DNA of 64,000 nucleotides from contig CANNCA010000005.1 in the NCBI GenBank assembly GCA_947503005.1, positions 124,001-188,000 on the forward strand, written 5' to 3'. This stretch comes from an uncultured Flavobacteriaceae bacterium (GTDB lineage: Bacteria > Bacteroidota > Bacteroidia > Flavobacteriales > Flavobacteriaceae). The notes under the pieces were generated by a model. It was not told where the DNA came from and did no database searches. It saw only the letters and a list, made by a program, of their open reading frames with translations. The position numbers and the translations under genes were made by a program. Shown here one piece after another: positions 3,565 to 35,774 of the stretch (position 1 is its first letter; the number at the start of each line of letters is the position of its first letter).

Positions 3565-3599
3565 TTGAAAAGAATCAAACATTACAATATACTTAAAGT

Positions 3600-5333: not shown

Positions 5334-5351
5334 CGCAATATATAATGTGAT

Positions 5352-8919: not shown

Positions 8920-8931
8920 GAGTTGGTTCGA

Positions 8932-9834
8932 TTAGTTTGATTGGTTTTTGGTCAAGGTCAAGAATTGCTCTTCTAAACTTTCTTTCCTTTTGACAAGATG
9001 TGCTAGAACGATACCTTTTTCAAATAAGGATTTATTAAATTCTTCAGCGCTGATATCTTCTTTCAAAAAGGCGGTGATTAGCCCGTCTTCGGTTCTGATT
9101 TCACCAAAACTTGCATTGTTTTCTAGGTAAGTGGTCAATTCTTGGGCTTGGGTTGTTTTTAGTTCGAAGAATCCATGAGTCGCCAACATATCTTCAACAC
9201 GGCCTGAATAGAGTTTTTCTCCCTTTCTAAGAATGACTACATGACTACAGACTTTTTCAACTTCGTCCAATAAATGGGAAGCCAAAAGTATGGTAGTACC
9301 TTGCGAGGCGATTTTTTTTATGATTTGGCGAATTTGATGAATACCTTGGGGGTCAAGACCGTTGGTAGGTTCATCCAAAATTAATATTTCAGGGTCGTTC
9401 AGCAGGGCAGAAGCAATAGCCAAGCGTTGTTTCATCCCCAAGGAATAAGTTTTAAACTTGCTGTTTTTTCGTTCGAGCAAGCCCACTAGGTCCAATTTTT
9501 CTTCGATTTTGTCAGTAGAAACATCTTTGATTTTACAAACCAATTTTAAATTCTGAACGGCCGTCATGTAAGGGTAAAAATTGGGTCGTTCAATAATCGC
9601 CCCAACCTTTTTAAGTGCATCGTGCGTTGAGGTATTACCATCGAACCAAGAAAAACCGCCTTGAGTTTTGTTTACTACATTAAGGACGATGCCCAAAGTT
9701 GTGGATTTTCCACTACCATTAGGCCCCAGAATTCCGTAAACATTTCCTTTTTCAATGGTGAAAGAAAGGTCTTTGACCGCAGTCAAATACCCAAACTTTT
9801 TGGTCAGATTACTGACGGTCAGGATTTTTTCCAA
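8932..9834 (-). CDS. ABC transporter ATP-binding protein
   Basis: A 300-residue ATPase of the BcrA/CcmA-like class. It carries a Walker A (GPNGSGKST, residues about 38-46), Q-loop region, the ABC signature YSLGMKQR (about 130-137), Walker B with ILILDEPTNGLDP (about 151-163) and the H-loop LLASHLLDEV. The C-terminal 85 residues form the variable regulatory extension usual in drug- or bacitracin-type exporters. It should energise the permease encoded directly downstream. A perfect 9-bp dyad lies 34-56 bases upstream of its start and could be an operator. It is the first gene of the minus-strand run that continues to position 1. Confidence 0.9.
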   Translation of the reverse strand: MEKILTVSNLTKKFGYLTAVKDLSFTIEKGNVYGILGPNGSGKSTTLGIVLNVVNKTQGGFSWFDGNTSTHDALKKVGAIIERPNFYPYMTAVQNLKLVCKIKDVSTDKIEEKLDLVGLLERKNSKFKTYSLGMKQRLAIASALLNDPEILILDEPTNGLDPQGIHQIRQIIKKIASQGTTILLASHLLDEVEKVCSHVVILRKGEKLYSGRVEDMLATHGFFELKTTQAQELTTYLENNASFGEIRTEDGLITAFLKEDISAEEFNKSLFEKGIVLAHLVKRKESLEEQFLTLTKNQSN

Positions 9835-13000: not shown

Positions 13001-16000
13001 GACTTCTTCGAATTCGAAAGTGTTGTATACATTTGTTCCACCATTAATACTACCAGTGTCGATTGATATTGTGGCATTGTTAGGATTATTGTCACTCGAA
13101 CACTGAAATTGTACTACTGTTGGTAAATCAAATATAATTTCATTTGGTTCATCAACGATAATAGTACTTCTGGTAGTTTCACAACCATTTGGCCCACTGG
13201 CGACTACTTCATAAGTGTCGGGAGGTAGGTTTTCGTAAGTGGATGTCGCTGCTACAAAATTACCATTATTAGGGGTTAGCGTGTATGTAAGCGGATTATT
13301 ACCGTTGTTTATTTGAGTCAATACAATGGTTCCATCATTATTACCGAAACAGCTTACGTTTGTTGGGTTCGCGGTAAAATCCGGTACAGTCGGTGTTAGA
13401 ATCTCAATTGGGAATTCGCGGGGACATTCGGGATTACTAGTTATGTCATACACGAAAACCCTGTACGAATCTGTTGTATTTATAAGTTCTGTTACCGAAG
13501 TACCTACCAGAGCTTGTCTTGCAACCTCTGATGCATTTGAAGAGTCCAGAATTTCGTATTCGTAATTTCCTGATCCGGCAGATACTTCTATTCGTATTTC
13601 GGCTTCCTGCCCAACACCACAACCTAGATCTCTTGATAAGGTCGCTGTTGCTTGTATACTTGGTTCAACAGTAAAAGCCTGGGAAACGGTACATCCATTA
13701 GTATCTTTTAAGACTGCAGTATAATTTCCTTCGGCCACACTTGTAAAGACTCCGCTGTTACTAACAAATGACGAACCACCATCTATTGAGTAGAGGAAAG
13801 AAGTGTTTCCAGGAAGTATGGTTACTGTAGTTGAGGTACCACAATTATCTATGTTCAAACTTGTTATTACAGGATTTGGTGACAAGGTCAACGTTTCGAA
13901 GCCTAAATTGGCGGAACATCCAAATTGGTCAGTAATGGTCACATGGTAGTCACCAGCTGGGGAATTTGGAGTTATTTCAACAGGGTTGTCCGTTGTGCCA
14001 GTTATAGTTGCAAAAGGAGCAGGTCCGGTTACGGTATATGTAAAAGTTCCACCACCACCTTGAATGTTTTCAATCGCGATTATACCAGGTTGCTCACAAG
14101 TTATTTGCTGTAACGTATTTAGATTTGCTGTGATGGCATCCAATTCTTCTAAAATCAGGTTTTCGCTTGCACTTGTACATTGAACAGTTCCTCCGGCATC
14201 TACCTGAGTTACCACAATATAATATTCGTTGGCAGCTAGGTTAGGAATGTTGATAGTACCGGAATATGGAATGTTTCCTCCACTATTCGTTATTGGATTA
14301 TCATTGATGTCATATAAAATCCAGCTCATTTGAGGTTCTGTTGAACCATCGGAGTCAGTTATGTTATATGTGATTTCTCCATCATTTGCACCATTACAAG
14401 AAGGCTCATAAGTTGATGTGATTTCCATCGGATTGGTCACCACATTGTTTACATTTACGCTACTTTGTCGAACGCAACCAGGTGCCGGCGTTGAAGAATC
14501 ACGCACATAAAAAGAATATGTTCTTCCAGGAATTAAGCCGGGAAATGTATGCGTTACGCCAGCGGCAAAAGGCCCGATCCATCCGTTTTCGGGGGCAATT
14601 GGGTCAAAATTCGCAGGGTCGTCCGTGTAAGTGTACAAATATGGAGCGGTTCCATTTTGTCCGCGGACTGTAACTTGTAACTCATTGCAATTAACAATAA
14701 TTGGTAGAATGGTAATATCCAAGTCATCCAAAGGATATGGAATGATAAATGGAGGCAAATCTGTTTGGCAAATTGTATTGTTGGATCCGTCAACTGTTCT
14801 CATTGAAGGATTTACGGTATCACCAGATAAATACCCAGTTAGTTGGTCGGAAGTGCCGGGTGTGCTATTATCACCAACCCATGTTGTGCCTCCATCGGCG
14901 CTGAACTGAATTGTTCCCACCGTTGTTGGGTATGCGCTGAAAGCAAATCCGAAATCATTGACATCGCCGGTACAGTTTGCAGGTGTAATACCAGTTATCG
15001 TCGCTGCCAACTCGTCAGGCTCGGTAATCGTACGTGATTCTGTTATCGAACAACCATAAACGTCGGTAAGAATAATATTATAGTTACCTGCTATTAAATT
15101 GAAATAGGTTCTTGACGTACTTATGACCGCGGTTTGGGTTTCATCGGCAGTACCATGGTCTATATCTACCAATTCATATGTAAAGGGTGCGACACCTGAG
15201 GTGATGTTTACGGCAATACTTCCCGGATCTCCAAAACAAACTGCATTCGTAGGTATCGCATCAAAAGCTAAAGCCGGTGCTGTACCCACTGTAACGGTTC
15301 TTTGGAACTCGCATCTAGGGGAAATTCCCCCATTGTCGCGAACATAAACATTATAATCGTCTGTTGTCAAACTAGTAACGGTGAAAGTATTCGAAGCACC
15401 AAAATCAGTATGATTGACAGTATTACTTGTACTTACAAAAGCATATACATAATTTCCATCTCCGCCACTGGCATTTACCGTAATACTGCCATCAGCGCAG
15501 GTGCTAACATCAACTACATCTACTGCAGCTGTTAGCGTCGGTGCAATGACGATGGTCTCAACAGCAGAAACGCATCCGTACGCGTCACTTACTTCAATAT
15601 CGTAACTTCCTTCAGAAAGACCTGTGAAAGTAAAAGTCGTTGCGTTGGATGGCGTAGGTGATTCCCAAGCAAGTCCATCTCTTCGGAATAAATAATCGCC
15701 ATTGCCTGTATTCACTGTGACTGTAATCGTGCCGTTGTTTGTTCCATCATAACATGTAGTGCTGACATCAAAATCAATATCTTCATAACGATTTATGGTT
15801 ACTGGCGTAGTTGATAAGACCTCGCAATTTTTGTCGTCTCGAACACGAATCAAATAACTCCCATCCGGTACATTGGTAAATGTACCGTTGGTTTGAAAAG
15901 GTCTAATCTCCGTACCTGAGGTATCTTCCAAACGATACTCATATCCGGGCGCTCCACCAGTTGCCGATGCTTCTAGTGTTCCGCCCGTATTAAAGCAGGT

Positions 16001-19000
16001 ATATTCTGCAGTTTGAGACAGGGCTGGAATGATAACAGACGGATCTGTAAGTGTAAAGGTAAAATCAGTTGTACATGATGTTGGTGTTGATACCGGAAGA
16101 CTTTCTATTTGGATAGTATGTGTGCCAGCACTAAATGGGGTAGCGGTTGTCACTTCGGAGACCATTGAGGTCGTCCAATTGGTACCATCACTAGAATATT
16201 GGAATCCTGTTGCAGGAAAGTTCAATACTTCAAATCGTACAGAACCATCTGTTCCTGAGGGACAACTAGGGTCTGTGGTAGCCAATATGTTAGCAGAAAA
16301 CTCTTTGTTATCTTCAACAACCACTTGAATATCCGCAGTTTTGCTACATGTTTCAGGTATTTGGCTAGCCTGAATGTCATCTAAGATCAAGTCATTACCA
16401 TCGTTGCTATTCACGTTAGACCTGAAAACAATATCGATATCGGTATACGCACCTGGGTCAAATGTTATGGTGCGTTCGTGCCAATCAAGATCATGGTTGT
16501 TTTTCGGAATCTCATTAGTAACTTCACTATAGATTAATGTTCCAGAACTATCTAGAATTTCCACTAAAACTTCAGGATTGTTTCCGGTTCCCGTAATGTT
16601 TTTAAGGTTGTATGCCCAAAAACTTAATGTGATTTCACGATTTGGTAACACTTCAATATTTTGTTTTGTCCACAAAACAGAATTGAGTACCTCACTTCCA
16701 GTGTCCGAGAATGTACTTATATCAATTGCTAAGAACCTACCGTCAGTTAGACCTGTATGGTCTTGAGGACTGGTCAAAGAAGGAATTGGATTTGTTACTA
16801 AATTGGTCACTGTATATTCGCCATTCACTAAAATACCTGCAGGTCCCCGGTTACAGCTTACAGTAGAACCATCTTGAGGTTCATAGCAGTATGCCGGTCC
16901 TATTTCTGCAATTTGTGTCGAAAATCCCGTACCAAAGTTCTCAAAGAACAGTGTGCTCTGATTTGCAGCTAGGGTAGTTGAATATTCAATATTAATAGTT
17001 TGAGTACCACTAACAACACTAGTAAATACATTATTGTCAGCTGGTATGTTGGCTGTACCATTTAAATCATGGGTGTAGGTAAAGTCGGCTGTATTCGATG
17101 GGGTCACGGTAATTGTTCCAACTCCGTCGCAATCATAGGTCACATTATTGGCAAAAGTGGGTTCGGTTGCACTACTTGGCACAGTTAATTCCATATCATA
17201 GGTACAACCTAGCGCATCTTGAACTGTAAACTGATGGTTTCCTGGCAAAAGATTTGCGGTATCAAGGCTACTGAAAGTACCGCCGTTAAAACTGTATTGA
17301 TAAGGGGCTTGACCACCACTTGGGTTCATTATTTTGACCAAGGCGCCGGCAGGATTACAAGAAGCATCCTCAATAATCGCAGCAGAGGCCAATAACCTAA
17401 ATGGTTGAACGATTTCATAATCGAAATTTTCTACACAACCCATTCCGGTGTTTCCACTGGAGTCCATTACGGTAATTGTGTATATCCCTGCGGATAAGTT
17501 GGCAAAGGTATTGGGTGATTGGTAATTGGTTCCACCATCCAAGCTATATTGATATGGAGCGGTTCCTCCGGTAACCGTAACTGTCATGGTCGCTGTTGAA
17601 GAATCGGAACATATAATATCGGAATTAGATGCTGAAATAGACATGGTACCTAAATCATCCACACGCACTGACGGAGAAAGTCCGTAACATCCGTTACCAT
17701 CTTTTACGATAAAGACATAATCGCCATCTCGGTTCGGGTTACCTGTATCTCCGAACAAAAATGTTGTTTCGGTTTGATATGCTGAATCTGGCACTGAGGT
17801 TTCATCGGCATGTTGAAGTACACCATCAATACTATAGATGGCCATTTCGTACTCAGGACTAGGAAGTCCGCCGGCAGGTGTCACATTTACTACTCCTGGG
17901 GTACATGTAATATTTTCAGAGGTTACGGCACCCAAAGTAAGTTCGGGTATTTCTGCTACAGTAATGTTTCGTGATATTGAACAGCCGTCTTGTGTGCTTG
18001 TAACAACTATGTAGTCCTCAGGAATTAAATTTGAAAACGTATGGGTATTATCGTTAACAGCAGTTTGATTACCTGCGGGAGATCCAAGGCCACCGTTACT
18101 TCCGTCATCTACAAATAGTTCATATGTATAATTGGGTCTTGCATTAAATGCTGCAACGGATATTGTGCCCAAGTCATTACAATCCGCAGGTGAACTGTCA
18201 ACTGAAACATCGAATAGCTGCTCTTGGATACCGATATCTTCAGTTTCGAAAATACAAGCCCCAACAATCGGCGTATTGTCAGCTGGGTTCAATTGAGTCA
18301 TTTGAACCTTGTAGGTGCCGCTTACCGCAATTTCAAAATTAGGCCCATTATTTGATGAAAATGGTACGACGATATTGTTGTCATTGGCATTTATCAATTG
18401 AAAACCATAACCTGCTCCAACACCCGTAATGCGAATGTTACCGTCAGTATCACAAAGTATGTCCGTAGGTGGAGTAACTGTGAAATTCAGTTCGTTTTGA
18501 AATACATTAAAGTAAAATCTACTAGAACAACCGTTGGCGTAGGTGACCGATAACCGATATTTACCAGCAGTGTCGACATTGTAATTATTACCTGTTTCAA
18601 CTTGATTCCAGGTACAGCTAAGATTTCTTGTTAAGCAACCATCAGGTCCGGCTGTGCAACTCGCTTCATCTAGTCTTTCCCAGAATAATCCACCTGAGGC
18701 ATCCGTAATGTTCATTTGTATAAGAGCACTATCCGTAGCGCCGCATAAAAAGATATCTACGAACTGGGTAGTACCATCATTGCAATCCAATCTAATTTCA
18801 CCTTGAATGTCATTATCGGGGTCAACATCACTATTGACCTGATTAAAATAGTCGACAATTGGGTTTGTTTGCGTGGTACCAAACCTTTCTACTTCAATAA
18901 CCTCCACTAGATCAGGACAGCTACCATTGGATGATTTTTCAACAATATAGGTGCCTATCGCTGTTATATAATAGGTGCTTGGATCACTGTCAGGGTCATC

Positions 19001-22000
19001 ATTCAGTTGCGTATCTCCACCATCTACTTGTCCGTTACCATTAGTGTCCAAATACCATTGGTAAGTCGTGAAACCTTGACCGGCTCTTAAAACTGCATCA
19101 TCACCACAGAGCATTTCAGTTCTAGGTATGTTACAACCTGCAAGCGCGTCGAAGACAGAGTTCGATGCTACTTCGGGAGTCCTAGGACATCCACTTATAG
19201 AATTGGAACCATTTTCATCGGTAAAAGTTGAAGTGTTCAGAACACCCTGATACGTTACGAAGGCCCTGTTTTCCAATTGAGACGAACAGGCGTCTACAAA
19301 GTTTGAACAGCTAGAGTCTATTGTAAATTCTATTTCTATAACATATAGGGGATCTCCGACTTCTACTAAATTATTTGGAATTGCAAAGTCGATAGTGCCG
19401 GCAACAAGGTCTGTAGTAACGGTAACGCTTGGATTTGGAACAATGATGTCATCTATCGTAATATTGCCTGGTAGTATATCTCGAATTGTAAAGTTGGTGG
19501 CATCGTCATCGCCGGTGTTTTGAAAATTCAACACATATTTATAAGATTGTCCGAGATTAAGCTGTTGCCCATTGACATCAGTACCGCTCAGATCTTGAGT
19601 GGTATTTCCTAAGAAAATTTCGGGGGCCAAAATTCGTATATAGGATGCCGCATTTACCGTTCCATCGTTGGCATCTACTACAGGTACTCCAGTTCCATAT
19701 TCACCGCCATCTCCACCATCGGCATTTTCATCCTTATTGAATTCATTGGCGTCGCTACATCCATCTCCGTCACTATCAAGATCAAGTTGGTCAGAAAGTC
19801 CGTCACCATCAGTATCGCAACCAGCAGTCAAAAGAACGCCCTGCATATTAGTTGGTCCAACAACATTTTGGCCAACAGAGATGGCGTTTGCTCCACCACC
19901 GTTCCATGAGAATGCATTTGCTGGGGTAGTTAGGATCATGGGTTCTAAGGGACCGTTTGAGGTGCGCGAACCAAAAAGAATGAACTGACCTGATTGGTCT
20001 ACGACTACCCTGATTAATGGGGTGCCGTGCGAACCTGTTAGGGTGTAGATCTGTGGATTTCCACTTTCGCCATATCCAGTTCCATCCAAAAATCTTGCGA
20101 AATTTCCGGGTGCATTCTGAAACTGAATTTCGCCTGCTAAATCGTTGCCATTAATCTGAAGATTAAATGAATTGTCCAAACTGAAAATATCTAGAATGAG
20201 ATAGTTTTCAACGCTTATTAAATCACTGTTATGAGTCTCTCCACTACTAATGTTGAAAGCAAGACCACTACATTCTTCAGCGTCGTAAATACCGTCATTA
20301 TCGTCATCTAGGTCAATTACATCAATGACTCCATCATTGTCATAATCATTGTGAACAATAATGTTGGCCGAAGGACTATCTTCTGTTAAGTTGATATCGA
20401 CTTGATCTTGCGTATGTGTAGCAGTATTTGTAAGGTTCAAAAATGGTAAAGTGTCAATTTCGTCGGCTTGAACCTCTAGTTGCAATTCTGCAATATCGCC
20501 ACCGCCCAAAGTACCTATGTTCCATATGTTTCCACTCCAACTTCCGGTAATCGTAAAGGCATTCACCAAAGATAGTCCAGCAGGAATGTTATCTGTTATT
20601 TGTAGATTGGTCAAGGGGCCTACACCCCAGTTTTGTACTCTGATGGTGAAAGTGGCAGTTTCACCTTCCATAATTTCCGGCTTATCTACTGTCTTAACAA
20701 TATGGATGTCAGGGTCGCAATAAAGGCCCAGAATAGGATTACTATCATAGGTACATGGACCCTTCGTACCTCTTAAAAAGTACTCTCCAGCTCCATTTGG
20801 TGCATAACTTGGACTATTGGCCCCAGGTATAATAGCACCATCTCTATACCATTGAAAAGCATCAAAATTACTGTTTGTAGCCTCATAAATTTCAGAACCT
20901 ACAAAACAACCAGTGCCGCCTCTGATTTCTAACGAAACTTCAGGTACAGTGTCAAATCCTGAAAAATAACCGGCAACACCACGAGCCCCATTATATCCGA
21001 AGAATCCAACGGCCATAGGTCCTGTAGATTGTACGCTAACGTCGCCATTGAGATTTGGGATGAAAAATGTTTTCCAGTCAGTTGATCCCGTAACAGGGTT
21101 CGATGCAGGTAGAGTAACAGGTCCATTGCCATCGGTGACTATTATGTTCGCGTCTGGCGTATTTACCGCGGCAATTATGGTCAAACCACCAGTGACCGCA
21201 GTGCCTGCCATATTTCTGATATCAGGAATATTGTCCATTACGTCAGGGAGCAAACAGTTAACCGGAGCCACGAAATTTAGACCTTGTGTGTAGGGTGTAG
21301 TCGCGCCGGCCATACATTGGTAGGCGTAGACATCTTTTGAAGTTTGCACGAACATATTCGCACCAACGGTGTTTGAAGAATACATGGTGCTTGGTACTTC
21401 AAAATAGTCTCCATTATTAATTGTGGCTATTGGGGTTGCGGAACCGTTGATAAAAATTTGAGTATTGTCGGCCGTTGCAATTAGAAGCGGAAATTCGGTC
21501 CATCCATTGGTATTTCCGTTTCCTCGTACAAAAACATATTCTTTTCCCAGTCTATTTTCAGGCACGGGTTGGTCGATTCCAGCATCACGATTGCTTGCCC
21601 CCACTTGTCGACCGAAGTTCATAGAGCCGTTGCTAATCACAATATCTTTATCAGAAACAATAGAAGCTCCGATCCAACCATCTTCATGGGCTTGTGTGGG
21701 TGCGTTGCCGATGTAGGTTTCATATACGAATGATTCATTAGCGTCAAGGGTAATTTGATGCGTATTTGCAGTTATACCTGCAATATTATTGCCTACTCTA
21801 AATTGACACCCTGGATCGTAGCCAAATAGATTAATGGTGGTGTTATCCTCGGTAGCCATGATTCCAAGTGTATTTGATTTTGAGGGATGTGCGCCCCTAT
21901 TGGGTACACCGCCCCACTTGAATTTTGTACCCAATGCCTGCCTACCTTTCGAAGTCAATGAAGCAGACTGTGCATTACTACTTCCCCGGTAATTCACATA

Positions 22001-22351
22001 AAACCGATTGCCGCTGGGTGATTCGAATCTTAGGCCGCTATTGTTTAGTACAATGCCAGTATTGGCATTGTTGACCAAAATGATATTATTGTCACCATTT
22101 GACATTGCAAAGACCTCTGGGTTGACATTTGAAATGGTATACGAATCTATGGGAGTATTGTTCGTGCCTCGATAAACGTTTACTGTAAATGGAGTAGGTT
22201 CTGGAGTTGATAAATAAACCGCTTGCTGTCGGATACCAGCATTATTTTGCCCTTGCTTTAAAGGCGGTAAATAATGAAGGTCACTCAATTGTGCTTTCGC
22301 AGAAATTGCAAATACAATTAGCAAGCAAAAAAATAGTACTTTACGTATCAT
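10043..22351 (-). CDS. Giant SprB-like T9SS type B surface adhesin
   Basis: A 4,102-residue modular protein. In order it has a signal peptide (1-20, ISAKAQ); an IgGFc-binding-protein-like head (about 21-470); an Ig-like unit; a DUF11 domain (about 550-650, IVKTVDKPEIMEGETATF); a thrombospondin-3-like Ca-binding stretch (about 670-693, DYDNDGVIDVIDLDDDNDG); a second such stretch (about 840-880); a second DUF11 (about 910-1015); then about 28 SprB-type modules of 80-110 residues (about 1287-4010), typically opening with xCxGxxDGxI and holding GGxxPYxY and a DxxGC end. A jelly-roll/MAM-like segment (about 1795-2000) interrupts the array. The end is a type B sorting domain (TPDGDGLNDFW, YDRYGREV, GWNGLYQ, LPTGDYWY, GNFTLYR). 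In gliding flavobacteria such proteins are mobile adhesins; the ligand here is unknown. It appears monocistronic. Confidence 0.92.
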   Translation of the reverse strand: MIRKVLFFCLLIVFAISAKAQLSDLHYLPPLKQGQNNAGIRQQAVYLSTPEPTPFTVNVYRGTNNTPIDSYTISNVNPEVFAMSNGDNNIILVNNANTGIVLNNSGLRFESPSGNRFYVNYRGSSNAQSASLTSKGRQALGTKFKWGGVPNRGAHPSKSNTLGIMATEDNTTINLFGYDPGCQFRVGNNIAGITANTHQITLDANESFVYETYIGNAPTQAHEDGWIGASIVSDKDIVISNGSMNFGRQVGASNRDAGIDQPVPENRLGKEYVFVRGNGNTNGWTEFPLLIATADNTQIFINGSATPIATINNGDYFEVPSTMYSSNTVGANMFVQTSKDVYAYQCMAGATTPYTQGLNFVAPVNCLLPDVMDNIPDIRNMAGTAVTGGLTIIAAVNTPDANIIVTDGNGPVTLPASNPVTGSTDWKTFFIPNLNGDVSVQSTGPMAVGFFGYNGARGVAGYFSGFDTVPEVSLEIRGGTGCFVGSEIYEATNSNFDAFQWYRDGAIIPGANSPSYAPNGAGEYFLRGTKGPCTYDSNPILGLYCDPDIHIVKTVDKPEIMEGETATFTIRVQNWGVGPLTNLQITDNIPAGLSLVNAFTITGSWSGNIWNIGTLGGGDIAELQLEVQADEIDTLPFLNLTNTATHTQDQVDINLTEDSPSANIIVHNDYDNDGVIDVIDLDDDNDGIYDAEECSGLAFNISSGETHNSDLISVENYLILDIFSLDNSFNLQINGNDLAGEIQFQNAPGNFARFLDGTGYGESGNPQIYTLTGSHGTPLIRVVVDQSGQFILFGSRTSNGPLEPMILTTPANAFSWNGGGANAISVGQNVVGPTNMQGVLLTAGCDTDGDGLSDQLDLDSDGDGCSDANEFNKDENADGGDGGEYGTGVPVVDANDGTVNAASYIRILAPEIFLGNTTQDLSGTDVNGQQLNLGQSYKYVLNFQNTGDDDATNFTIRDILPGNITIDDIIVPNPSVTVTTDLVAGTIDFAIPNNLVEVGDPLYVIEIEFTIDSSCSNFVDACSSQLENRAFVTYQGVLNTSTFTDENGSNSISGCPRTPEVASNSVFDALAGCNIPRTEMLCGDDAVLRAGQGFTTYQWYLDTNGNGQVDGGDTQLNDDPDSDPSTYYITAIGTYIVEKSSNGSCPDLVEVIEVERFGTTQTNPIVDYFNQVNSDVDPDNDIQGEIRLDCNDGTTQFVDIFLCGATDSALIQMNITDASGGLFWERLDEASCTAGPDGCLTRNLSCTWNQVETGNNYNVDTAGKYRLSVTYANGCSSRFYFNVFQNELNFTVTPPTDILCDTDGNIRITGVGAGYGFQLINANDNNIVVPFSSNNGPNFEIAVSGTYKVQMTQLNPADNTPIVGACIFETEDIGIQEQLFDVSVDSSPADCNDLGTISVAAFNARPNYTYELFVDDGSNGGLGSPAGNQTAVNDNTHTFSNLIPEDYIVVTSTQDGCSISRNITVAEIPELTLGAVTSENITCTPGVVNVTPAGGLPSPEYEMAIYSIDGVLQHADETSVPDSAYQTETTFLFGDTGNPNRDGDYVFIVKDGNGCYGLSPSVRVDDLGTMSISASNSDIICSDSSTATMTVTVTGGTAPYQYSLDGGTNYQSPNTFANLSAGIYTITVMDSSGNTGMGCVENFDYEIVQPFRLLASAAIIEDASCNPAGALVKIMNPSGGQAPYQYSFNGGTFSSLDTANLLPGNHQFTVQDALGCTYDMELTVPSSATEPTFANNVTYDCDGVGTITVTPSNTADFTYTHDLNGTANIPADNNVFTSVVSGTQTINIEYSTTLAANQSTLFFENFGTGFSTQIAEIGPAYCYEPQDGSTVSCNRGPAGILVNGEYTVTNLVTNPIPSLTSPQDHTGLTDGRFLAIDISTFSDTGSEVLNSVLWTKQNIEVLPNREITLSFWAYNLKNITGTGNNPEVLVEILDSSGTLIYSEVTNEIPKNNHDLDWHERTITFDPGAYTDIDIVFRSNVNSNDGNDLILDDIQASQIPETCSKTADIQVVVEDNKEFSANILATTDPSCPSGTDGSVRFEVLNFPATGFQYSSDGTNWTTSMVSEVTTATPFSAGTHTIQIESLPVSTPTSCTTDFTFTLTDPSVIIPALSQTAEYTCFNTGGTLEASATGGAPGYEYRLEDTSGTEIRPFQTNGTFTNVPDGSYLIRVRDDKNCEVLSTTPVTINRYEDIDFDVSTTCYDGTNNGTITVTVNTGNGDYLFRRDGLAWESPTPSNATTFTFTGLSEGSYDIEVSDAYGCVSAVETIVIAPTLTAAVDVVDVSTCADGSITVNASGGDGNYVYAFVSTSNTVNHTDFGASNTFTVTSLTTDDYNVYVRDNGGISPRCEFQRTVTVGTAPALAFDAIPTNAVCFGDPGSIAVNITSGVAPFTYELVDIDHGTADETQTAVISTSRTYFNLIAGNYNIILTDVYGCSITESRTITEPDELAATITGITPANCTGDVNDFGFAFSAYPTTVGTIQFSADGGTTWVGDNSTPGTSDQLTGYLSGDTVNPSMRTVDGSNNTICQTDLPPFIIPYPLDDLDITILPIIVNCNELQVTVRGQNGTAPYLYTYTDDPANFDPIAPENGWIGPFAAGVTHTFPGLIPGRTYSFYVRDSSTPAPGCVRQSSVNVNNVVTNPMEITSTYEPSCNGANDGEITYNITDSDGSTEPQMSWILYDINDNPITNSGGNIPYSGTINIPNLAANEYYIVVTQVDAGGTVQCTSASENLILEELDAITANLNTLQQITCEQPGIIAIENIQGGGGTFTYTVTGPAPFATITGTTDNPVEITPNSPAGDYHVTITDQFGCSANLGFETLTLSPNPVITSLNIDNCGTSTTVTILPGNTSFLYSIDGGSSFVSNSGVFTSVAEGNYTAVLKDTNGCTVSQAFTVEPSIQATATLSRDLGCGVGQEAEIRIEVSAGSGNYEYEILDSSNASEVARQALVGTSVTELINTTDSYRVFVYDITSNPECPREFPIEILTPTVPDFTANPTNVSCFGNNDGTIVLTQINNGNNPLTYTLTPNNGNFVAATSTYENLPPDTYEVVASGPNGCETTRSTIIVDEPNEIIFDLPTVVQFQCSSDNNPNNATISIDTGSINGGTNVYNTFEFEEVTSGAIQNSTSPNYVFTDYNGGDVIVRVFDNKGCSGQVTVSVPVYDQLNSATVVVDAPISCDYIGEDIHIDISAYTPTNYEYRMLPSGAFQTSHTFTDLQPDNYTFEVKNINTGCKLIVEHTVEEPNTFDVTPEVLADVICHGDNGSVRFNITDVTYAGNFTLNIYDTQGTPINTADDVLEYNDNNVPLGQTGTINIPAGSYLVEIIQNGFPQCTQIRAFTIATPIDPITLDVVEVIHAGCTDDQGTALVRPLGGELPFDITITNTSTGTVYPMASQVSSHLFQGLNSGIYSIEVTDNLTCTQTFLNAFEILLPDPILGNTSATMLNCEGDSDAQVQFNFDMAPRNVTPGYKFILNKYSDASKTILLSSTVSQTTPTFDDQDAGFYTILVEDDMGCTFEDAIAIEILNPIEVIGILTMTQPLSCLVNAELELTATGGTGPYTWSVDGINFNAMNGLNGPNTHVFQNVTAGTYQYFIQDNLNCDARFPTNEITINPLEDLTLQPVDASITPTINCNGESTAVIDWVADGGLGNYRYSLFSDAALTNQVRPNQASGTFADLPEGNYYVHVESGDCRETSIEINIIEPEELVVIPEITNISCYGEEDGRVEFDVQFGTAPYQFAISPNLDKFVDDNSFDDLPVGDYQVIVQDANGCIELVEFTITEPDQLLITLSATPEICAGDEDGTITVVPQGGTPPYSTAINSDSDADFVEGRLTIENLSGGDYFVYVRDANGCLVDDLIRVESGANLNGTVEVIYECSGDTPTNRIDIVFEDPDVSSDVLYALDSTDSNDLVLEPNFENLSSGDHFIYIIHANGCPNTINFEVEGFEPLELSLEQLDLNEITATATGGKEGYTYYFDDQNNGDDNTFYIRRTDTYTVRVVDENGCESIATIEMEFIDIEIPNFFTPDGDGLNDFWIPRNIQQFPDIFIKIYDRYGREVYRIQDTEEGWNGLYQEAELPTGDYWYVIQLNGEDDDREFVGNFTLYR

Positions 22352-25369: not shown

Positions 25370-26410
25370 TTACAAAGTTTTGTGACTTATTTTAGATTTA
25401 TATCCTTCCAAGACCAAATAGAATTGAACACCGAATAGGAGGGAAGCCAAAACCAGATGTATCGGTTGTGTTGCGAAAGGAAAATCAAGATAATACATCG
25501 CCATTCCGGAAATTACTTCGAACAAAATAAGTAATAAGACCCAATTGATTTTAGAATAGCCAGAACCGATTTTATAAATTCGATATGCAATGAACAAATT
25601 CAACAAAGTCACCAAAATCGAAAAAGAACGATGAATGTAAAATTGAATGTTCGGGTCTTGTAACCAAAGACCCTTTTCGCTTTCACCGACCAAATCAATT
25701 TTAGTATCCACAAATTCCCGTACTTGTGTACCCAAGACAACCTGTATCAAAGTGAATGCCAATGCAATTACAAAGAGATTAAGAGTAAGTTTATCGTATT
25801 TGAAAATACTCTTTTTGTCGCTGCAAATAGCAATGAGATAAAGCAGCATCGCTACGATTAGCAGTGCCATAACCATGTGTATGGTTATTTTGAACGGGTT
25901 TAGGACCGAGTAGACCACTGTAGCACCCAACCAAGCTTGAAAACCCATGGCGATTACCACCACCCATGAAAGAATCGTGATTTTTTTACGCTCTTTCCAA
26001 TACCGTATCGAAAGTAAAGCTAATACCAGTGTAGCCAAGCCAGCCAAAGCACCTAGTAAACGATTTATGAATTCAATCCATGTATGCCAAGGATTGAAAA
26101 TAGCATATTTGTGTTTGGTATACGGTTCCCAATTTTGAGGTTCAAAGTTCGACGGGGTCGTAAAGTCTTTGATTGCAACTTGCAATGCTTCATTGATAAT
26201 TACCACCTGTCCTTTTTTATAGTCTTTTTCAGGCTGCCATTCTAACTGAGAGGCTTCTGTAGGAGGAATGTAATACCCAAAACATTTTGGCCAATCTGGG
26301 CAGCCCATGCCACTGCCGGTCATTCGCACGACTGCCCCGGCAACGATGACCAAATACACCAAGGTCAAAGCTGTTTTTGCTGTTTTACGGAAGTTTTTCT
26401 CGGTACCCAT
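25370..26410 (-). CDS. ctaA: Heme A synthase, COX15/CtaA family
   Basis: Converts heme O to heme A for cytochrome c oxidase, in the inner membrane. The 346-residue protein (start at 26410) has about eight transmembrane segments, the conserved GAxVRMTGSGMGCPDWPKC start, and an EFINR motif of the family's ExxxR type. Four candidate heme-ligand His are seen in NPWHTWIEF, ITIHMVMAL, FYIHRSFS and TQPIHLVLA. The extra loop (about residues 45-100) between helices 1 and 2 is typical of Bacteroidota enzymes. The reading frame opens at 26449, but a TAATTTTG box at 26435-26428 lies inside that extension, so I prefer the ATG at 26410. Confidence 0.9.
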   Translation of the reverse strand: MGTEKNFRKTAKTALTLVYLVIVAGAVVRMTGSGMGCPDWPKCFGYYIPPTEASQLEWQPEKDYKKGQVVIINEALQVAIKDFTTPSNFEPQNWEPYTKHKYAIFNPWHTWIEFINRLLGALAGLATLVLALLSIRYWKERKKITILSWVVVIAMGFQAWLGATVVYSVLNPFKITIHMVMALLIVAMLLYLIAICSDKKSIFKYDKLTLNLFVIALAFTLIQVVLGTQVREFVDTKIDLVGESEKGLWLQDPNIQFYIHRSFSILVTLLNLFIAYRIYKIGSGYSKINWVLLLILFEVISGMAMYYLDFPFATQPIHLVLASLLFGVQFYLVLEGYKSKISHKTL

Positions 26411-26427
26411 TCCAAATAATTTCGTTG

Positions 26428-26435
26428 CAAAATTA
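26428..26435 (-). promoter_or_regulatory. Bacteroidota-type -7 box for ctaA
   Basis: TAATTTTG on the minus strand matches the TAnnTTTG consensus fully, 18 bases upstream of the ATG at 26410. No clear TTTG -33 element is seen at the expected distance. Confidence 0.45.
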
Positions 26436-26479
26436 CCATACTTTACCAAGATAGTAAGCCTAGAATGTCAAAGATTTTA

Positions 26480-26512
26480 ATAAAAAAAGACCGTTCAATA
26501 AGAACGGTCTTT
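26480..26512 (-). terminator. Rho-independent terminator after the OmpA-family gene
   Basis: On the minus strand, an 11-bp perfect stem AAAGACCGTTC / GAACGGTCTTT with a 5-base loop is followed by a run of T (TTTTTTTATT when the stem end is included). It starts 23 bases after the stop codon and separates this gene from ctaA. Confidence 0.88.
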
Positions 26513-26534: not shown

Positions 26535-28475
26535 CTATTCCACAACAATAAATTCAGACCTTCTGTTTTCTTGGTGTTTCTCATCAGGACAGCTTTCTCG
26601 AGTACTGCATTCATTGGTTAGTTTGGTCTTGCCAAAACCTTCTCCCGAGATTCTAGAGGTATCAATACCATTCGCAACCAAATATGCAACTGTGTTTTCA
26701 GCTCTTTTTTGAGAAAGTTTCATGTTGTATAATTTACCGGCTTTTACGTCAGTATGCGATTGTACCTGAACCTTCATGTCAGGAAAGGCCTTCATGTATT
26801 CCAACACTTTTAATATGGTAACGGAGGCATCAGGGCGAATTTCTGCTTTATCCAAATCAAAATAGACCGGTTCTAAATTTAGGTATTTAACCAAATCAGA
26901 ACCTACTGTTGCCCTTTTGATAGTTTTTTCAAGTTTCAGTTCAATACCCTCGGTGTCATTGGCGCGAACAACCGCGAACATTTTATCAACGTCATTGTAG
27001 TCTTCTTTTGAGGCTATAATCTTATAATCAACATCTCTACAATCTCCATCCAAAGTGAACGTTCCATCATCTCCCGAATTAGTTTCAGCCACGATTTCAT
27101 CGGTGCTATTGAATATTGTGATTTTAGCTCCAGCAAGTGGTTCATTGGTTTCCTTGTCTTTTACAATACCATCAACAACGGTACTGCAAGTAAGGTCGAT
27201 TTCCTTATTTTCAATCAGAGAATAGATATCATCACTACCTTGCCCCCCATCACGGTTTGATGCAAAGAAGCCTTTTTTGGTTTCTTCATTGATTATAAAG
27301 GAGAAGTCATCTTGTGTGCCGTTAACGGGTTTTCCCACATTCACAATGTTCAGATTGCCCATGTCCTCTATTGCGGTGGCAAAAACATCAAGACCTCCAA
27401 GACCGGGATGCCCATCCGAAGCGAAATACAACACATTTTTAGTGGTAACATACGGGAAAGTTTCTCTTGCTTCTGTGTTAATGACATTACCCAAATTGAC
27501 TGGTGCTCCGATACTTCCGTCGCTGTTGAGGTTTACGACAAAAATGTCCGAGTTGCCAACAGAACCCGGCATATCCGAAGCAAAGTATAACTTGCCCTCG
27601 TCCGGACTCAGCGTTGGATGCGCACAGGAGTAGTCATCACTATTAAAAGGAAGTTCCGTAATATAACTCCATATGTCATTTTCAACTTTTGCACGATATA
27701 TTTTTAATCGACTTACACCCTCATCATCCCTTGAAAAATTACCATTTTTAGAATTGTTACGTGTAAAGTAAACCGTTGCCCCGTCTTTAGTGAATACTGC
27801 AGAGGACTCGTGGGTTTTTTTGTTTGCACTTCTGTCAAGTCTTACGGCATTTGCGAAATCATCGGAAACCGGGCTTGCACTGTACAAATTCAAAAATGGT
27901 TGGTTGTTCCATTCATGAATGTAACGTGCTAAATTGCCACTATCCCTTGCCGTGGAGAAAACCAATTGTTCCCCCTTATACGCTGGAGCGAAATCGGAGG
28001 CAGTAGAATTGATACCCAAATTTTTGATCTCATATCTATTGGATTGTTTTTCTATTTTTTCCAAATAATTAGAATTATCGGCGATTTTAGTAGCACGTAC
28101 GTCACCACCTTTTGCCGCTCTGAATTTTTCCATCCAAATGTCCGCAGCTTGGTATTCTTGTGTACTCTTTAAAGATTGTGCGTATTTGTACATGTAATCG
28201 GGATTAACATCCGCTCCACCATCCCTAAAGAGTTTACTGTACCATGTTGCCGCCTCACTATATTTTGCGTTTTGATAGTTGGCATCACCGAGATTTTCGT
28301 AAATCTGTTTTGCGGTATACCCTTTTTCGACCAAAGTTTCATATTTCTCGATTGCCGGGGCATATGCCAAGTCTTCAAATGCCTCTTTAGCTTTTTCCGT
28401 TTGTTTTTCTTGCGCTGAAATGAGCAAGCTGGTCAACAATAGACCGAAAACTAAGTAATTGGTTTTATTTTTCAT
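26535..28475 (-). CDS. OmpA-family protein with TPR, PD40 and carboxypeptidase-regulatory-like domains
   Basis: A 646-residue periplasmic/outer-membrane protein, similar in layout to the OmpA partners encoded beside PorP/SprF genes in T9SS/gliding loci. After a signal peptide (MKNKTNYLVFGLLLTSLLIS) come TPR-like repeats (about 25-130), PD40/TolB-type propeller repeats (about 165-450, for example HPTLSPDEGKLYFASDMPG), a carboxypeptidase-regulatory-like beta-sandwich (about 465-540) and a C-terminal OmpA peptidoglycan-binding domain (about 540-646: YFDLDKAEIRPDA, QSHTDVKAGKLYNMKLSQKRA, GFGKTKL). The open frame runs on to 28619, but that extension lies in a decayed sprF gene, so I place the start at 28475, 10 bases after the pseudogene's stop. 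A perfect terminator follows the gene. Confidence 0.9.
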   Translation of the reverse strand: MKNKTNYLVFGLLLTSLLISAQEKQTEKAKEAFEDLAYAPAIEKYETLVEKGYTAKQIYENLGDANYQNAKYSEAATWYSKLFRDGGADVNPDYMYKYAQSLKSTQEYQAADIWMEKFRAAKGGDVRATKIADNSNYLEKIEKQSNRYEIKNLGINSTASDFAPAYKGEQLVFSTARDSGNLARYIHEWNNQPFLNLYSASPVSDDFANAVRLDRSANKKTHESSAVFTKDGATVYFTRNNSKNGNFSRDDEGVSRLKIYRAKVENDIWSYITELPFNSDDYSCAHPTLSPDEGKLYFASDMPGSVGNSDIFVVNLNSDGSIGAPVNLGNVINTEARETFPYVTTKNVLYFASDGHPGLGGLDVFATAIEDMGNLNIVNVGKPVNGTQDDFSFIINEETKKGFFASNRDGGQGSDDIYSLIENKEIDLTCSTVVDGIVKDKETNEPLAGAKITIFNSTDEIVAETNSGDDGTFTLDGDCRDVDYKIIASKEDYNDVDKMFAVVRANDTEGIELKLEKTIKRATVGSDLVKYLNLEPVYFDLDKAEIRPDASVTILKVLEYMKAFPDMKVQVQSHTDVKAGKLYNMKLSQKRAENTVAYLVANGIDTSRISGEGFGKTKLTNECSTRESCPDEKHQENRRSEFIVVE

Positions 28476-28485
28476 GATCAGTGTT

Positions 28486-28830
28486 TTAAAAGTACCTAGG
28501 CGCAATTCTGTATTTATATCTGGTACGGAATCCGTTACGCAGCAATACCTCGAATGGACCATCATTGAAAACGGCATTACCCAACTCAGTTGTTTTTCAT
28601 AGGCAAGCCCCAACATCAATTGGGCGCCAATTTGAAAAGCAACTAAAGCCCTTAATGCCCCAACTTATTGGTATACGGCACTTAAGGTAGATTTTTCATT
28701 TAGCATAAAGTTAGCTGAAAAATCCAATTATAGCGGTACTCCGCGTAAAGCTTTTAACAAAGCTACCGGTTTGAATTTCAAATTGGTTTTAAAACAAATA
28801 CGTAACCTGTACATACTAACAATTTCTACA
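28486..28830 (-). pseudogene. Decayed C-terminal fragment of a PorP/SprF-family gene
   Basis: Reading the minus strand across frames recovers the family's C-terminal half: TGYVF, NLKFKPVALLKALRGVPL, then LDFSANFMLNE, AFQIGAQLMLGLAYEK, TTELGNAVFNDGPFEVLLR and a closing YKYRIAPRYF before TAA (28488-28486). Damage includes in-frame TAA at 28730-28728 (likely from CAA, as family members have PLQLDF) and at 28667-28665, a one-base loss in the A-run near 28595 and at least one more frameshift near 28785. The N-terminal two-thirds are missing: the cca gene's stop is at 28897. Intact PorP/SprF proteins are outer-membrane beta-barrels paired with the kind of OmpA protein encoded next door. Confidence 0.85.
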
Positions 28831-28896
28831 AAAATTGAAATTCGTTATTTTAAGGCTCTTCATCTGGTCAAAAGATACCGTAAAATATAGAGGTAG

Positions 28897-30324
28897 CTAT
28901 TTCCGTATTTTTAAACCAAGTTCCTTTCCCTTATCGAACATAATGAGTTTGGCGGCCTCATACTCATTGGGAATTTCTCCTTCCAAAATAGCTTCTTTAA
29001 TGGCCTCTTTAATAATGCCAATTTCCTTCGAGGGTTTAATGTTGAAAGTTTTCATGATTTCTTCACCTGAAACAGGAGGTTGAAAGTTACGAACATGATC
29101 GCGCTCTTCGACCTCTCTTATTTTTTGACGAACAATTTTAAAGTTGTTTTTATACTTCTTTTGTTTCTTCGGGTTTTTTGTAGTGATGTCGGCTTCACAT
29201 AAGGTCATCAAATCTTCGATATGGTCGCCCGCGTCAAAAACCAAGCGACGTACCGCTGAATCCGTAGTGAAATCTTCAGAAATAATAATGGGCCTTGAAC
29301 TCATGCGTACCATTTTTTGAACGAACTTCATTTTATCGTTCAAGGGCATGCGCAAACGCTTGAAAAGTTTGTAGACCATTTTTGAGCCCACAAATTCATG
29401 ACCGTGAAAGGTCCACCCTAGTTTTTTGTCGAACTTCTTAGTGGGGGCTTTTCCAATATCATGTAAAAGGGCCGCCCATCGCAGCCAGAGGTCATCCGTG
29501 GTTTCACAAATATTATCTACAACCTCTAGAGTGTGCCAAAAGTTGTCTTTGTGGCGTTGGCCTTCGATTTCTTCAATGCCCTGAAGTGCAACCAGCTCTG
29601 GAAGTATGAAAGGTAAAAGCCCAGTTTTATGCAGTAGCGCAAAACCAATGGAGGGTTGAATACTCTCAATTATTTTGTGAAGCTCATCTACAATGCGTTC
29701 TTTTGAGATAATCTTAATGCGCTCTTTGTTCTTCGTAATTGCTTGAAGTGATTCTTGATCTATAGTAAACTCCAATTGCGTGGCAAACCTGATAGCCCGC
29801 ATCATACGCAATGGATCATCAGAATATGTAATACTTGGTTCAAGGGGTGTTCGTATGATTTTAGCCTTCAAATCAGCGACTCCATCAAAAGGGTCGAGAA
29901 TATTTCCGTAATCAGATTTGTTCAGGGAGATGGCCAAAGCGTTGATTGTAAAATCCCTTCGTTTTTGGTCATCCTCCAAAGTGCCATCTTCCACTACTGG
30001 TTTTCGGCTATCACGATGATAACTTTCTTTACGGGCACCTACAAATTCAAGCTCGATAGTTTCATTTTTTATCATGGCCGTGCCAAAGTTCTTAAAAACT
30101 GAAACCTTGGGTTTTCCCTTTAGTTTCGAGGCTACTTTTTTTGCCAATGCGATTCCACTGCCAACAGTAACAATATCAATATCTTTCGGAGTTCCCCTAT
30201 CTAGAAGATAGTCTCTAACAAATCCCCCTATGACATAGCAATCAAACCCAAGTTCTTCAGCGGCTTGAGCTACTACTTCGAATATCGGATTGACAAGTGC
30301 TTGTTTGTGGTTCAAAGGGTTCAA
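28897..30324 (-). CDS. cca: CCA tRNA nucleotidyltransferase / poly(A) polymerase family with HD domain
   Basis: A 475-residue class II nucleotidyltransferase that adds or repairs the tRNA 3' CCA end, or acts as a related polymerase. Motifs: [12 protein letters not shown] (about 34-45) and the catalytic DIDIV (about 49-53), [10 protein letters not shown] (about 122), [12 protein letters not shown] (about 168-179), and an HD domain with LLHDIGKAP and HGHEF (about 270-310). The C-terminus has a conserved NYEAAKLI-like segment. The reading frame begins with TTG at 30324, preceded in frame by TAA, and no in-frame ATG exists before the GGFVRD motif, so a TTG start is required. Bacteroidota members are usually annotated as HD-domain CCA enzymes. 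Confidence 0.88.
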
Positions 30325-33222: not shown

Positions 33223-34038
33223 ATGAACACTGTAAGCGTAATCGTAAGTACCTATAAAAAACCAGATTGGTTGCAAAAAGTGCTTTGGGGATTCGATTGC
33301 CAAACCTACAAAGACTTTGAGGTGGTTATTGCTGACGATGGTTCTGGACAAGAAACCAAGGATTTGATTGCGACTATGCGCGAAGAAGTTACGTATGATA
33401 TCAAGCATGTTTGGCAAGAAGATGACGGATTTCAAAAATGTAAAATTCTCAACAAGGCTATTACCGCATGTACTTCTGAGTACATTATTATGACCGATGG
33501 TGATTGTATACCTAGAGAAGATTTTGTGCAAGTACATTATTTAAACAAGGAAGCTGGCCATTTTATTTCTGGCGGATACTATATGCTTCCTATGAATATT
33601 TCGAACGCAATTACCAAAGAAGACATTCTAAATCAAAATTGCTTTGATATCAACTGGTTGCGAAAAAAGGGAATTCCGAAGACATTCAAGAATAATAAAT
33701 TGACCGCTTCGGGTTTTCTATCAAAGCTCTTCAATACGTTCACACCTACTAATGCCAGTTGGAACGGGCACAACTCATCCGGATGGAAAGTCGATATCCT
33801 AAATGTAAACGGATTTGATGAGAGAATGCAATATGGAGGCGAGGATCGTGAGTTTGGAGAGCGCTTGTCAAACTTCGGAATAAAATCAAAGCAACTGCGG
33901 TATAGTGCAGTTTGTATTCATTTAGACCATGAACGAAGCTATCGTACGCCTGAGGCAATTGCCAAAAATATGGTGATTCGTAAAGAAGTCAGGCAGAACA
34001 AAAGTGTCTGGACCTATCACGGCATTGTCAAACAATAA
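33223..34038 (+). CDS. Glycosyltransferase family 2 with galactosyltransferase-like C-terminus
   Basis: A 271-residue GT2 enzyme. The N-terminal half has VSVIVSTYKKPDWLQKVL, VVIADDGSG (nucleotide-binding Asp) and YIIMTDGDCIPREDF with the metal-binding DxD. The C-terminal part has WNGHNSSGWKVDILNVNGFD and GGEDREFGERL, the Glyco_transf_7C pattern of chondroitin/galactosyltransferase-like enzymes. It is the only rightward gene inside a leftward glycan cluster and has its own recognisable promoter. Its last 22 bases overlap the 3' end of the opposing WaaE-like gene. Acceptor and donor are unknown; surface polysaccharide or core assembly is inferred. Confidence 0.87.
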   Translation: MNTVSVIVSTYKKPDWLQKVLWGFDCQTYKDFEVVIADDGSGQETKDLIATMREEVTYDIKHVWQEDDGFQKCKILNKAITACTSEYIIMTDGDCIPREDFVQVHYLNKEAGHFISGGYYMLPMNISNAITKEDILNQNCFDINWLRKKGIPKTFKNNKLTASGFLSKLFNTFTPTNASWNGHNSSGWKVDILNVNGFDERMQYGGEDREFGERLSNFGIKSKQLRYSAVCIHLDHERSYRTPEAIAKNMVIRKEVRQNKSVWTYHGIVKQ

Positions 34039-34811
34039 GCCATTTCATTTTTCTTTTCAAGCCTTTTCAGTTCACGGTAGCGCTCTAAATCACTCAGGGC
34101 GTTCAAGTAGCAGATGGTTATTCCTTTTCGACCGTCAAAAATACCTAGGCGCAAGAAATAATGGTTAAAAAATTTCCATAAAGGCTTTAAGACAAGGGAC
34201 AAATAATTGAATTTTTTCTCGGTAAAGAAATCTTCTTTTGCCTTTAATCTTCCGTACTTCTGCATTTTCGATTTATAGTCCTCGTAATTCTTGTAGCAAT
34301 AATGGATTAATTTTTCCTTGAAAATTCCAGAAGCTCCGTTGACTTCCAAAGTTTCGTGAACAATTTTTCGGTCAGAGAACTTTGCTTTACTCTTTCTGAA
34401 AAGACGATAATTTTTATCAGTTTGCCAACCGCTATAGCGAAGTACTTCATTGGCGAACATGAACTTTCTGTAAAACCAAAATGCAGAAAATTCGGTTTTA
34501 TTATTCACAACGGTAGAGATTTCCGTTTTTAGTTCTTCCGAAATTACCTCATCAGCATCCAAAAACAGTACCCAATCATGGGTAGCTTGTTGTAGGGCAA
34601 ATGACTTTTGTGAAGTGAAGTTGGCAAAAGGATGTTGTATAACCTTAACTTTCGGATGGGCGAGCAAGTACTCATAGGTACCATCGGTGCTGAAAGAATC
34701 AACAACGATGATTTCATCAGCAAACTCAACGGATTTGATGCATTTTTCAATGTATCCCATCTCGTTATAGGCAATGACCAATGCCGAAATTTTTGCTTTG
34801 GGGTTATTCAT
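34017..34811 (-). CDS. Glycosyltransferase family 2, WaaE/KdtX-like
   Basis: A 264-residue GT2 enzyme resembling the WaaE/KdtX group that adds glucose to the heptose of lipopolysaccharide core. It has ISALVIAYNEMGYIEKCIKS, the nucleotide-binding IIVVDSFSTDGT, VLFLDADE as metal-binding DxD, and RLFRKSKAKF plus KIVHETLEV typical of the group. It is highly similar along its length to the next gene upstream (34968-35774), a tandem duplication. It has its own promoter-like elements and its 3' end overlaps the convergent GT2 gene by 22 bases. The exact sugar is not readable. Confidence 0.87.
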   Translation of the reverse strand: MNNPKAKISALVIAYNEMGYIEKCIKSVEFADEIIVVDSFSTDGTYEYLLAHPKVKVIQHPFANFTSQKSFALQQATHDWVLFLDADEVISEELKTEISTVVNNKTEFSAFWFYRKFMFANEVLRYSGWQTDKNYRLFRKSKAKFSDRKIVHETLEVNGASGIFKEKLIHYCYKNYEDYKSKMQKYGRLKAKEDFFTEKKFNYLSLVLKPLWKFFNHYFLRLGIFDGRKGITICYLNALSDLERYRELKRLEKKNEMAYCLTMP

Positions 34812-34967: not shown

Positions 34968-35774
34968 TTAATTGCTTTGCTGTGGGGCTGTGTTGAGGCT
35001 TGGCACTTTTTGTTCTTGTTGCAATCTTCTCAATTCAAGATATCTTTCCCAATCGCCAAGTGCATTTAGATAGCAAACTTTGATACCTTTCAGTCCATCA
35101 AGTACGCCCAAACGAACGATATAATTGTATAAGAACCTATAAGTGGGTTTAATAATGAGAAGGCCTAAACTGAATCGTTTTTTGTTTAGTATCGCTTCTT
35201 TGGCCTTAAGACGACCATAGCAAAGCATTTTACCTTTATAATTGTCGAAATTACGATAGCAAAAATGGGTTAATTTTTCCTTCAGAATTCCTGAAGTTCC
35301 GTCTACAACTAAAGTTTCATGCACAATTCGTTTTTCCGAAAACTTTACTTTACTTTTTCTGAATAGCCTATAATTTTTATCGGTTTGCCAGCCGCTGAAA
35401 CGTAGCCTTTTTTCTTGGAACATGAATTTTCTTCGAAACCAATAGGCAACATGGGTCTTTGGTCCGTTGACGGTATCAATGATTTCGTTTTGTAGGTTTG
35501 CTGTAACTACCTCATCGGCGTCAACAAAAATCACCCAATCATTGGAGGCCTGCTGAAGTGTGAAGGCCTTTTGAGCCGTATAGTTTTTAAATGGATGTTG
35601 AATTACCCTTACCTTTGGGTGCGCCAAAAGATACTCATAAGTACCATCTGTACTATAAGAGTCTACAACGATAATTTCATCTGCGAATTCAACGGATTTA
35701 ATACAGTTTTCGATATACCCTATTTCGTTATAAGTGATAACGAGTGCTGATATTTTTTGCTTTTGAAGCACCAT
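34968..35774 (-). CDS. Glycosyltransferase family 2, WaaE/KdtX-like (tandem paralogue)
   Basis: A 268-residue paralogue of the gene at 34017-34811. Shared stretches include CIKSVEFADEIIVVDS, STDGTYEYLLAHPKV, GWQTDKNYRLFRKSK and the KGI...CYLNAL region. The GT-A motifs are intact (VVDSYSTDGT, VIFVDADEVV), so both copies should be active. The C-terminus is extended by a Gln/Ser-rich tail (QQEQKVPSLNTAPQQSN). A distinct acceptor or linkage position in the same surface glycan is the simplest reason to keep both copies; this is inference. Confidence 0.87.
   Translation of the reverse strand: MVLQKQKISALVITYNEIGYIENCIKSVEFADEIIVVDSYSTDGTYEYLLAHPKVRVIQHPFKNYTAQKAFTLQQASNDWVIFVDADEVVTANLQNEIIDTVNGPKTHVAYWFRRKFMFQEKRLRFSGWQTDKNYRLFRKSKVKFSEKRIVHETLVVDGTSGILKEKLTHFCYRNFDNYKGKMLCYGRLKAKEAILNKKRFSLGLLIIKPTYRFLYNYIVRLGVLDGLKGIKVCYLNALGDWERYLELRRLQQEQKVPSLNTAPQQSN

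Follow-up and report, generated by a model that had tools for sequence, protein, structure and literature searches.

A decayed porP remnant beside a retained PorE-like OmpA gene in an uncultured Flavobacteriaceae bacterium

The porP locus and its deletion

The window, a stretch of 64,000 nucleotides (G000:C5:124001-188000), comes from the 4.58-Mb genome of a marine bacterium in the same genus as Maribacter algarum. Its minus strand carries, in this order, SUA5, a CCA tRNA nucleotidyltransferase gene, a porP remnant, an OmpA/PD40 gene, a terminator and a COX15-like gene, SUA5 and COX15 being the names that we assume for the two outer genes. The features of the locus are as follows:

28897 to 30324, minus strand: CCA tRNA nucleotidyltransferase gene, left flank marker of the conserved order
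28811 to 28896, minus strand: segment of 86 nt from the CCA-transferase stop to recognisable porP, with the deletion junction
28486 to 28810, minus strand: porP/sprF remnant, the last ~109 codons and the stop codon, with two in-frame TAA and two net frameshifts; 5′ two-thirds absent
26535 to 28475, minus strand: PorE-like gene, 646 aa, with OmpA, CarboxypepD_reg and PD40 domains and a weak TPR match
26486 to 26512, minus strand: intrinsic-terminator-like hairpin 3′ of the OmpA gene, 11 pairs followed by a T-rich tail
25370 to 26449, minus strand: COX15-like gene, right flank marker of the conserved order

The window also encodes five proteins with type B T9SS sorting domains, at 361-8060 and 10043-22351, one of them of 4,102 aa. 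ABC permease and ABC ATPase genes (8086-9834) separate the type B cluster from the 4,102-aa gene, in an order conserved in several relatives. Two adjacent similar genes in the ORF list, at 34017-34811 and 34968-35774, which we take to be glycosyltransferase-like, apparently represent a tandem duplication.

A preliminary description of this DNA had read the C-terminal part of a PorP/SprF protein across three frames, ending in YKYRIAPRYF and broken by two TAA codons and frameshifts, and we arrive at the same reading. When aligned at the nucleotide level with intact orthologues, the remnant spans 109 codons and the stop (28810-28486), has its in-frame TAA codons at 28730-28728 and 28667-28665, and contains one net 1-nt loss near the 5′ end. 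The frameshift in an A-run is also there, although its size differs from the one-base deletion proposed earlier: in the alignment the gap is 4 nt net, which amounts to a frame shift of −1. The PF11751 (PorP_SprF) model matches 28584-28814 on the minus strand (G000:C5:152584-152814) with 37.2 bits (E 4.9e-9 for the genome), above the curated cut-off of 22.3 bits, over model positions 186-257 of 273 and with 2 TAA inside; the other 13 PF11751 matches in the genome are all stop-free. The remnant has no full-length open frame with signal peptide and barrel. Its read-through can be aligned along its full 109 residues to PorPs of relatives and to paralogues, with E values down to 6e-42 in a small local database and 50-63% identity among the 45 matches listed of 71. 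Furthermore, the suggested tblastn comparison, made without the read-through, finds porP/SprF similarity at the remnant in two pieces with 50 and 53% identity. In the PorP tree, the remnant is nested in the clade of syntenic PorPs (support 99/98), on 33% of columns only and as a long branch whose placement the tool calls unsure; the tree lacks the G000_C8 PorP (script filter), to which the remnant is 52% identical, versus 58-63% to the syntenic PorPs. Orthology with the syntenic porP of the relatives follows from synteny and tree, the tree alone being weak. Together, because the read-through aligns over all 109 residues, tblastn matches without it and the place is syntenic, the remnant is the real decayed 3′ part of a porP/sprF gene, beyond chance.

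An extension of the remnant 5′ of 28810 was considered and dropped, as shuffled sequences equalled the alignment score of 28811-28896 against porP. Of 500 shuffles each, the score was reached by 77 (L039), 160 (L040), 434 (L063), 156 (L060) and 269 (L048). The segment thus has no significant similarity to porP in the five relatives tested, and the recognisable remnant ends at about 28810, in line with the earlier view that the 5′ part is gone. Similarity of the same segment to the intergenic DNA between the CCA and type B genes is at most weak in the four relatives tested, the score being reached by 19 (L039), 156 (L040), 67 (L060) and 472 (L063) of 500 shuffles each.

Six relatives have both the CCA gene and the OmpA gene, and all six have the order CCA, type B, porP, ompA. 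Taken as L039, L040, L048, L060, L061 and L063, their CCA-to-OmpA space measures 5,904, 5,318, 9,124, 6,791, 6,092 and 4,951 nt, the type B protein at the locus has 1,540, 1,345, 2,531, 1,826, 1,566 and 1,234 aa, and the porP is open with 309, 309, 311, 325, 309 and 309 aa. The two checks proposed earlier, for an intact gene in sister species and for a missing type B gene upstream, therefore both come out positive: the relatives have an open porP of 309-325 aa at the syntenic place and a type B gene before it, which is absent here. Because only 421 nt remain in the window versus 4,951-9,124 nt in the six relatives, a net loss of 4.5-8.7 kb evidently eliminated the type B gene together with the first two-thirds of porP, presumably in a single step. 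The stops and frameshifts look like decay that set in later than the deletion, an order that we infer.

In M. algarum, the type B protein of the locus has a TSP3 repeat match and a CHU_C sorting domain (CTD). The rest of the genome yielded no orthologue of the missing type B gene, in a search in which only the CTD is informative, low-complexity repeats giving many partial matches; the best own-genome CTD match is 54% identical over 137 residues (56% over the last 90), whereas the CTDs encoded at this locus in relatives, including the tandem copies, share 61-76% identity with that of M. algarum. The deletion is known from one genome. A DNA search with window positions 28960-28486 against 397 family genomes, two candidates per genome being scored, gave no junction-spanning match outside the own genome; M. 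algarum (G001), which has an intact porP, is absent from the matches listed. This is a labile locus: in L062, two full type B-porP-ompA units follow each other in tandem, and L048 carries another type B gene and porP ahead of COX15 but lacks a further OmpA match at that place.

Decay of porP and constraint on the OmpA gene

The OmpA partner is intact, as had been described, with an open frame of 646 aa, and the reported terminator does follow it, as the 11-pair stem and T-rich tail listed above (26512-26486). Its OmpA, CarboxypepD_reg and PD40 domains score above the Pfam cut-offs, and TPR is weak (20.5 versus 32.7 bits). The model for PorE proper, NF052230, gives 301 bits against a cut-off of 600, and the genome's best match to it, C1:113444, is also below the cut-off with 356 bits. 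The best NCBIfam match is the CHU_0125 family, NF053607, with 414 bits over residues 12-646 against a cut-off of 620. The first 30 residues contain no cysteine, and thus no lipoprotein signal peptide. We call the protein PorE-like on its domains and partial score, both NCBIfam models being under their cut-offs. A motif that we take to be peptidoglycan-binding is kept and is common to the seven relatives, and the best PDB match is 6top, presumably the C-terminal domain of Porphyromonas gingivalis PorE.

To compare constraint, positions invariant among seven other taxa of an eight-taxon alignment were scored at first and second codon positions. In the remnant, 22/164 such positions have changed, versus 19/1,013 pooled over the seven relatives (Fisher p 9e-10), a loss of constraint relative to the orthologues; in the OmpA gene, the counts are 24/656 versus 185/4,609 (p 0.75), the p values being rough since the pooled counts of the relatives overlap. 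Changes at conserved positions are thus in seven-fold excess in the remnant, whereas the OmpA gene has no excess. The share of the window branch in tree length (fixed tree, positions 1+2) is 0.38 for the remnant, 0.07 for OmpA and 4 to 22% for six flanking genes. The mean p-distance at positions 1+2 from window to relatives, divided by that among relatives, is 1.93 for the remnant, 1.01 for OmpA and 0.85-1.20 for seven flanking genes. Together, these counts show a porP stub that decays without constraint and an OmpA gene that is open and just as constrained as in the relatives. The loss had earlier been called recent. The loss stands, and its recency holds only relatively: because 13% of otherwise invariant first and second positions have changed, it is, on this count, well beyond strain-level recency. 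Third codon positions are saturated and give no date.

The OmpA gene could also be on its way out, having lost its function with porP and simply being unbroken yet. This would fit the fact that the genes form a unit in relatives and that PorE of P. gingivalis becomes truncated or unstable in the absence of PorP (PMC9143113). Degenerate 3′-end fragments of porP with one TAA each likewise occur at 8598-8801 in L069, which is M. algarum, and at 2083-2346 in L070, without an adjacent OmpA match. The gene, however, keeps 646 codons without stop or frameshift and has no excess of changes at conserved positions. Joint release with porP predicts ~76 extra OmpA changes at conserved positions, where 24 in all are seen, and ~12 frameshifts at the density of the remnant, where 0 are seen. 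Indeed, under simulated neutral change, OmpA genes stayed stop-free in 10/300 cases at 5% per site and in 0/300 at 10, 13 and 20%. Only a very late release of OmpA would agree with these numbers, and we consider this course of events unlikely.

A little less credible still is that the stub of porP was retained because it serves OmpA as a leader, RNA or promoter region. The distance from porP stop to OmpA start is 10 nt here, like the 10-12 nt in the six relatives, as a kept stub would have it. Decay is nevertheless even along the stub, with 5/42, 8/46, 3/36 and 6/40 positions changed by quarter, the last quarter included. Furthermore, TTG-N17-23-TANNTTTG, which we take to be the F. johnsoniae-type promoter consensus, has no match with at most 1 mismatch upstream of OmpA (0.7 expected by chance). 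No terminator-like hairpin was found on the minus strand between the CCA gene and OmpA, nor a terminator-like site between the CCA and type B genes in L040. Transcription of the OmpA gene probably comes about by read-through from the CCA-transferase gene, which runs in the same direction.

Type of the lost unit

PorP/SprF proteins carry type B substrates and keep them in place; PorE binds peptidoglycan and ties some PorP/type B complexes to the wall (PMC9143113, PMC12618676). The complex of PorE, PorP and type B protein has been described as a chain that leads from the cell wall to the surface (PMC9143113). Units with a PorE-like gene have been proposed to be static and wall-anchored and units without one to be mobile (PMC12618676, PMC9143113), and SprF, which moves its adhesin, carries a Cys-x-Cys tail (PMC12635249). 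The lost genes had initially been assigned to a gliding module, an assignment that finds no support: the intact orthologues of the remnant end in PRFF and lack the Cys-x-Cys tail. In the genome itself, two of the eight PorPs looked at, of 13 intact in all, have the Cys pair. The PRFF ends of the orthologues, against Cys-x-Cys in SprF, and the proposed static nature of units with a PorE-like gene make the lost unit most likely a static rather than a gliding adhesin.

As far as the available portions of these papers describe them, several known systems resemble parts of the locus. P. gingivalis PorE-PorP-PG1035 likewise combines a type B CTD protein, a PorP barrel and PorE, whose TPR, beta-propeller, CarboxypepD-like and OmpA domains recur in the OmpA protein here (PMC9143113). 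Unlike in that system, the type B gene is gone, porP is broken and the PorE-like gene stays; P. gingivalis PorE is moreover a lipoprotein (PMC9143113), whereas the signal region here is without cysteine. Operons of the Fjoh_3952-Fjoh_3951-Fjoh_3950 type in F. johnsoniae, with their genes in the order type B, SprF-like, PorE-like, match the intact relatives and are proposed to form a static wall-anchored complex; they are intact, unlike the locus in the window (PMC12618676). The orphans described in F. johnsoniae are type B substrates and one SprF-like protein, in contrast to the PorE-like orphan here (PMC12618676). C. hutchinsonii CHU_0125, called a putative lipoprotein in the title of PMC5891637, gives its name to the family that is the best NCBIfam match of the OmpA protein, at 414 bits and below the family cut-off of 620. 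Deletion of CHU_0125 harms outer-membrane integrity, the mutant releasing vesicles and being sensitive to harmful compounds (PMC5891637), so such a relative can have a general envelope role.

The OmpA protein might instead now serve the window's own orphan type B cluster (361-8060, together with the 4,102-aa protein of 10043-22351), which shares its neighbourhood; the remnant is the sole porP match that the genome search with PF11751 gives for the window. The cluster's CTDs are, however, of another class, 21-27% identical to the lost type in the four of five compared, and that of the 4,102-aa protein is 73% identical to one beside a Cys-x-Cys-tailed PorP, which points to an SprF-like carrier and makes such service improbable. 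The idea that the broken porP frame is an assembly or sequencing artefact draws on two contig ends of this assembly (C8 and C13) that lie in or adjoin type B genes, a sign that these repeats are hard to assemble, but it is already largely refuted and very improbable, since sequencing errors do not yield 13% substitution at otherwise invariant positions along a whole fragment, the contig runs through the locus, and the own-genome PorPs compared (8 of 13) are not close to the fragment (best 52% identity).

The orphaned PorE-like gene and its possible partners

To see how often such a gene stands without porP, we surveyed 14 genomes of the genus, which contain 51 OmpA matches (E up to 1e-80). Twelve of the 51 form a longer PorE class (727-882 aa in open frames, with identity of 39-41% that starts at about residue 23), and a PorP match within 2.5 kb upstream accompanies 1/12 of these among the PorP matches listed. 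The other 39 comprise 4 at contig ends, 34 with an upstream PorP, and the window. All 34 other assessable cases (34/34) have a near full-length stop-free PorP match within 1.2 kb upstream, as judged from those listed of the 153 matches in the PorP search. One of the 34, G003:C316:1701-3569 (L028), is a PorE-like gene with one TAA beside an open porP, which may be the converse case or reflect a sequencing error. The family sample comprised 149 genomes, 126 of them with an OmpA match, and the check covered 30 loci, the window's among them; in 29/29 others, one of them in the same genus, OmpA has directly upstream an open porP that ends in PRFF and measures 309-334 aa (counted from the first Met), and these porP matches, obtained with queries of true length, are stop-free. 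L087 has a second PorP match downstream of its OmpA gene.

Among the open-licence papers searched, no title or opening of an abstract tells of a PorE-like gene outliving its porP. The gene loss itself is of an ordinary kind, and the uncommon feature is that a PorE-like gene is retained, fully constrained, without the carrier gene that is normally its neighbour. Surprise at this is limited, since the longer PorE class in the same genomes is mostly without adjacent porP (11/12, among the PorP matches listed), which means that a PorE-like gene need not have a porP next to it on the map.

Together, these observations argue for the following history. The locus once held, like that of relatives today, a three-gene surface-anchoring unit consisting of a type B T9SS substrate, a PorP-like carrier and a PorE-like OmpA protein. 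After a net loss of 4.5-8.7 kb, which cost it the type B gene and all but the last third of porP, the porP stub decayed without constraint, and the PorE-like gene, next in line, stayed open and constrained. The OmpA protein most likely still acts as a tether from the outer membrane to peptidoglycan, either with another PorP from elsewhere or alone. We give this reading as a whole, a lost unit with a decayed porP and a retained, orphaned PorE-like wall tether that is re-partnered or acts alone, a probability of about 0.82.

Of the two possible roles, the instability of PorE without PorP in P. gingivalis would argue against a stand-alone one unless another PorP substitutes, and thus favours re-partnering (PMC9143113). 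Two PorPs are candidates only for a new partner: that at the start of C5 (L075), beside which no PorE-like gene was found, and that of the C8 unit, the closest to the remnant among the own-genome PorPs compared (8 of 13; 52%). That OmpA proteins of this PorE-like class are not bound to a single cognate PorP, and are shared between carriers or have an envelope-tethering role of their own, is somewhat more probable than its opposite. If true, the species would be a natural knock-out that separates a shared-partner role from an own envelope-tethering role, and the retention of the PorE-like gene makes partner swapping versus acting alone testable.
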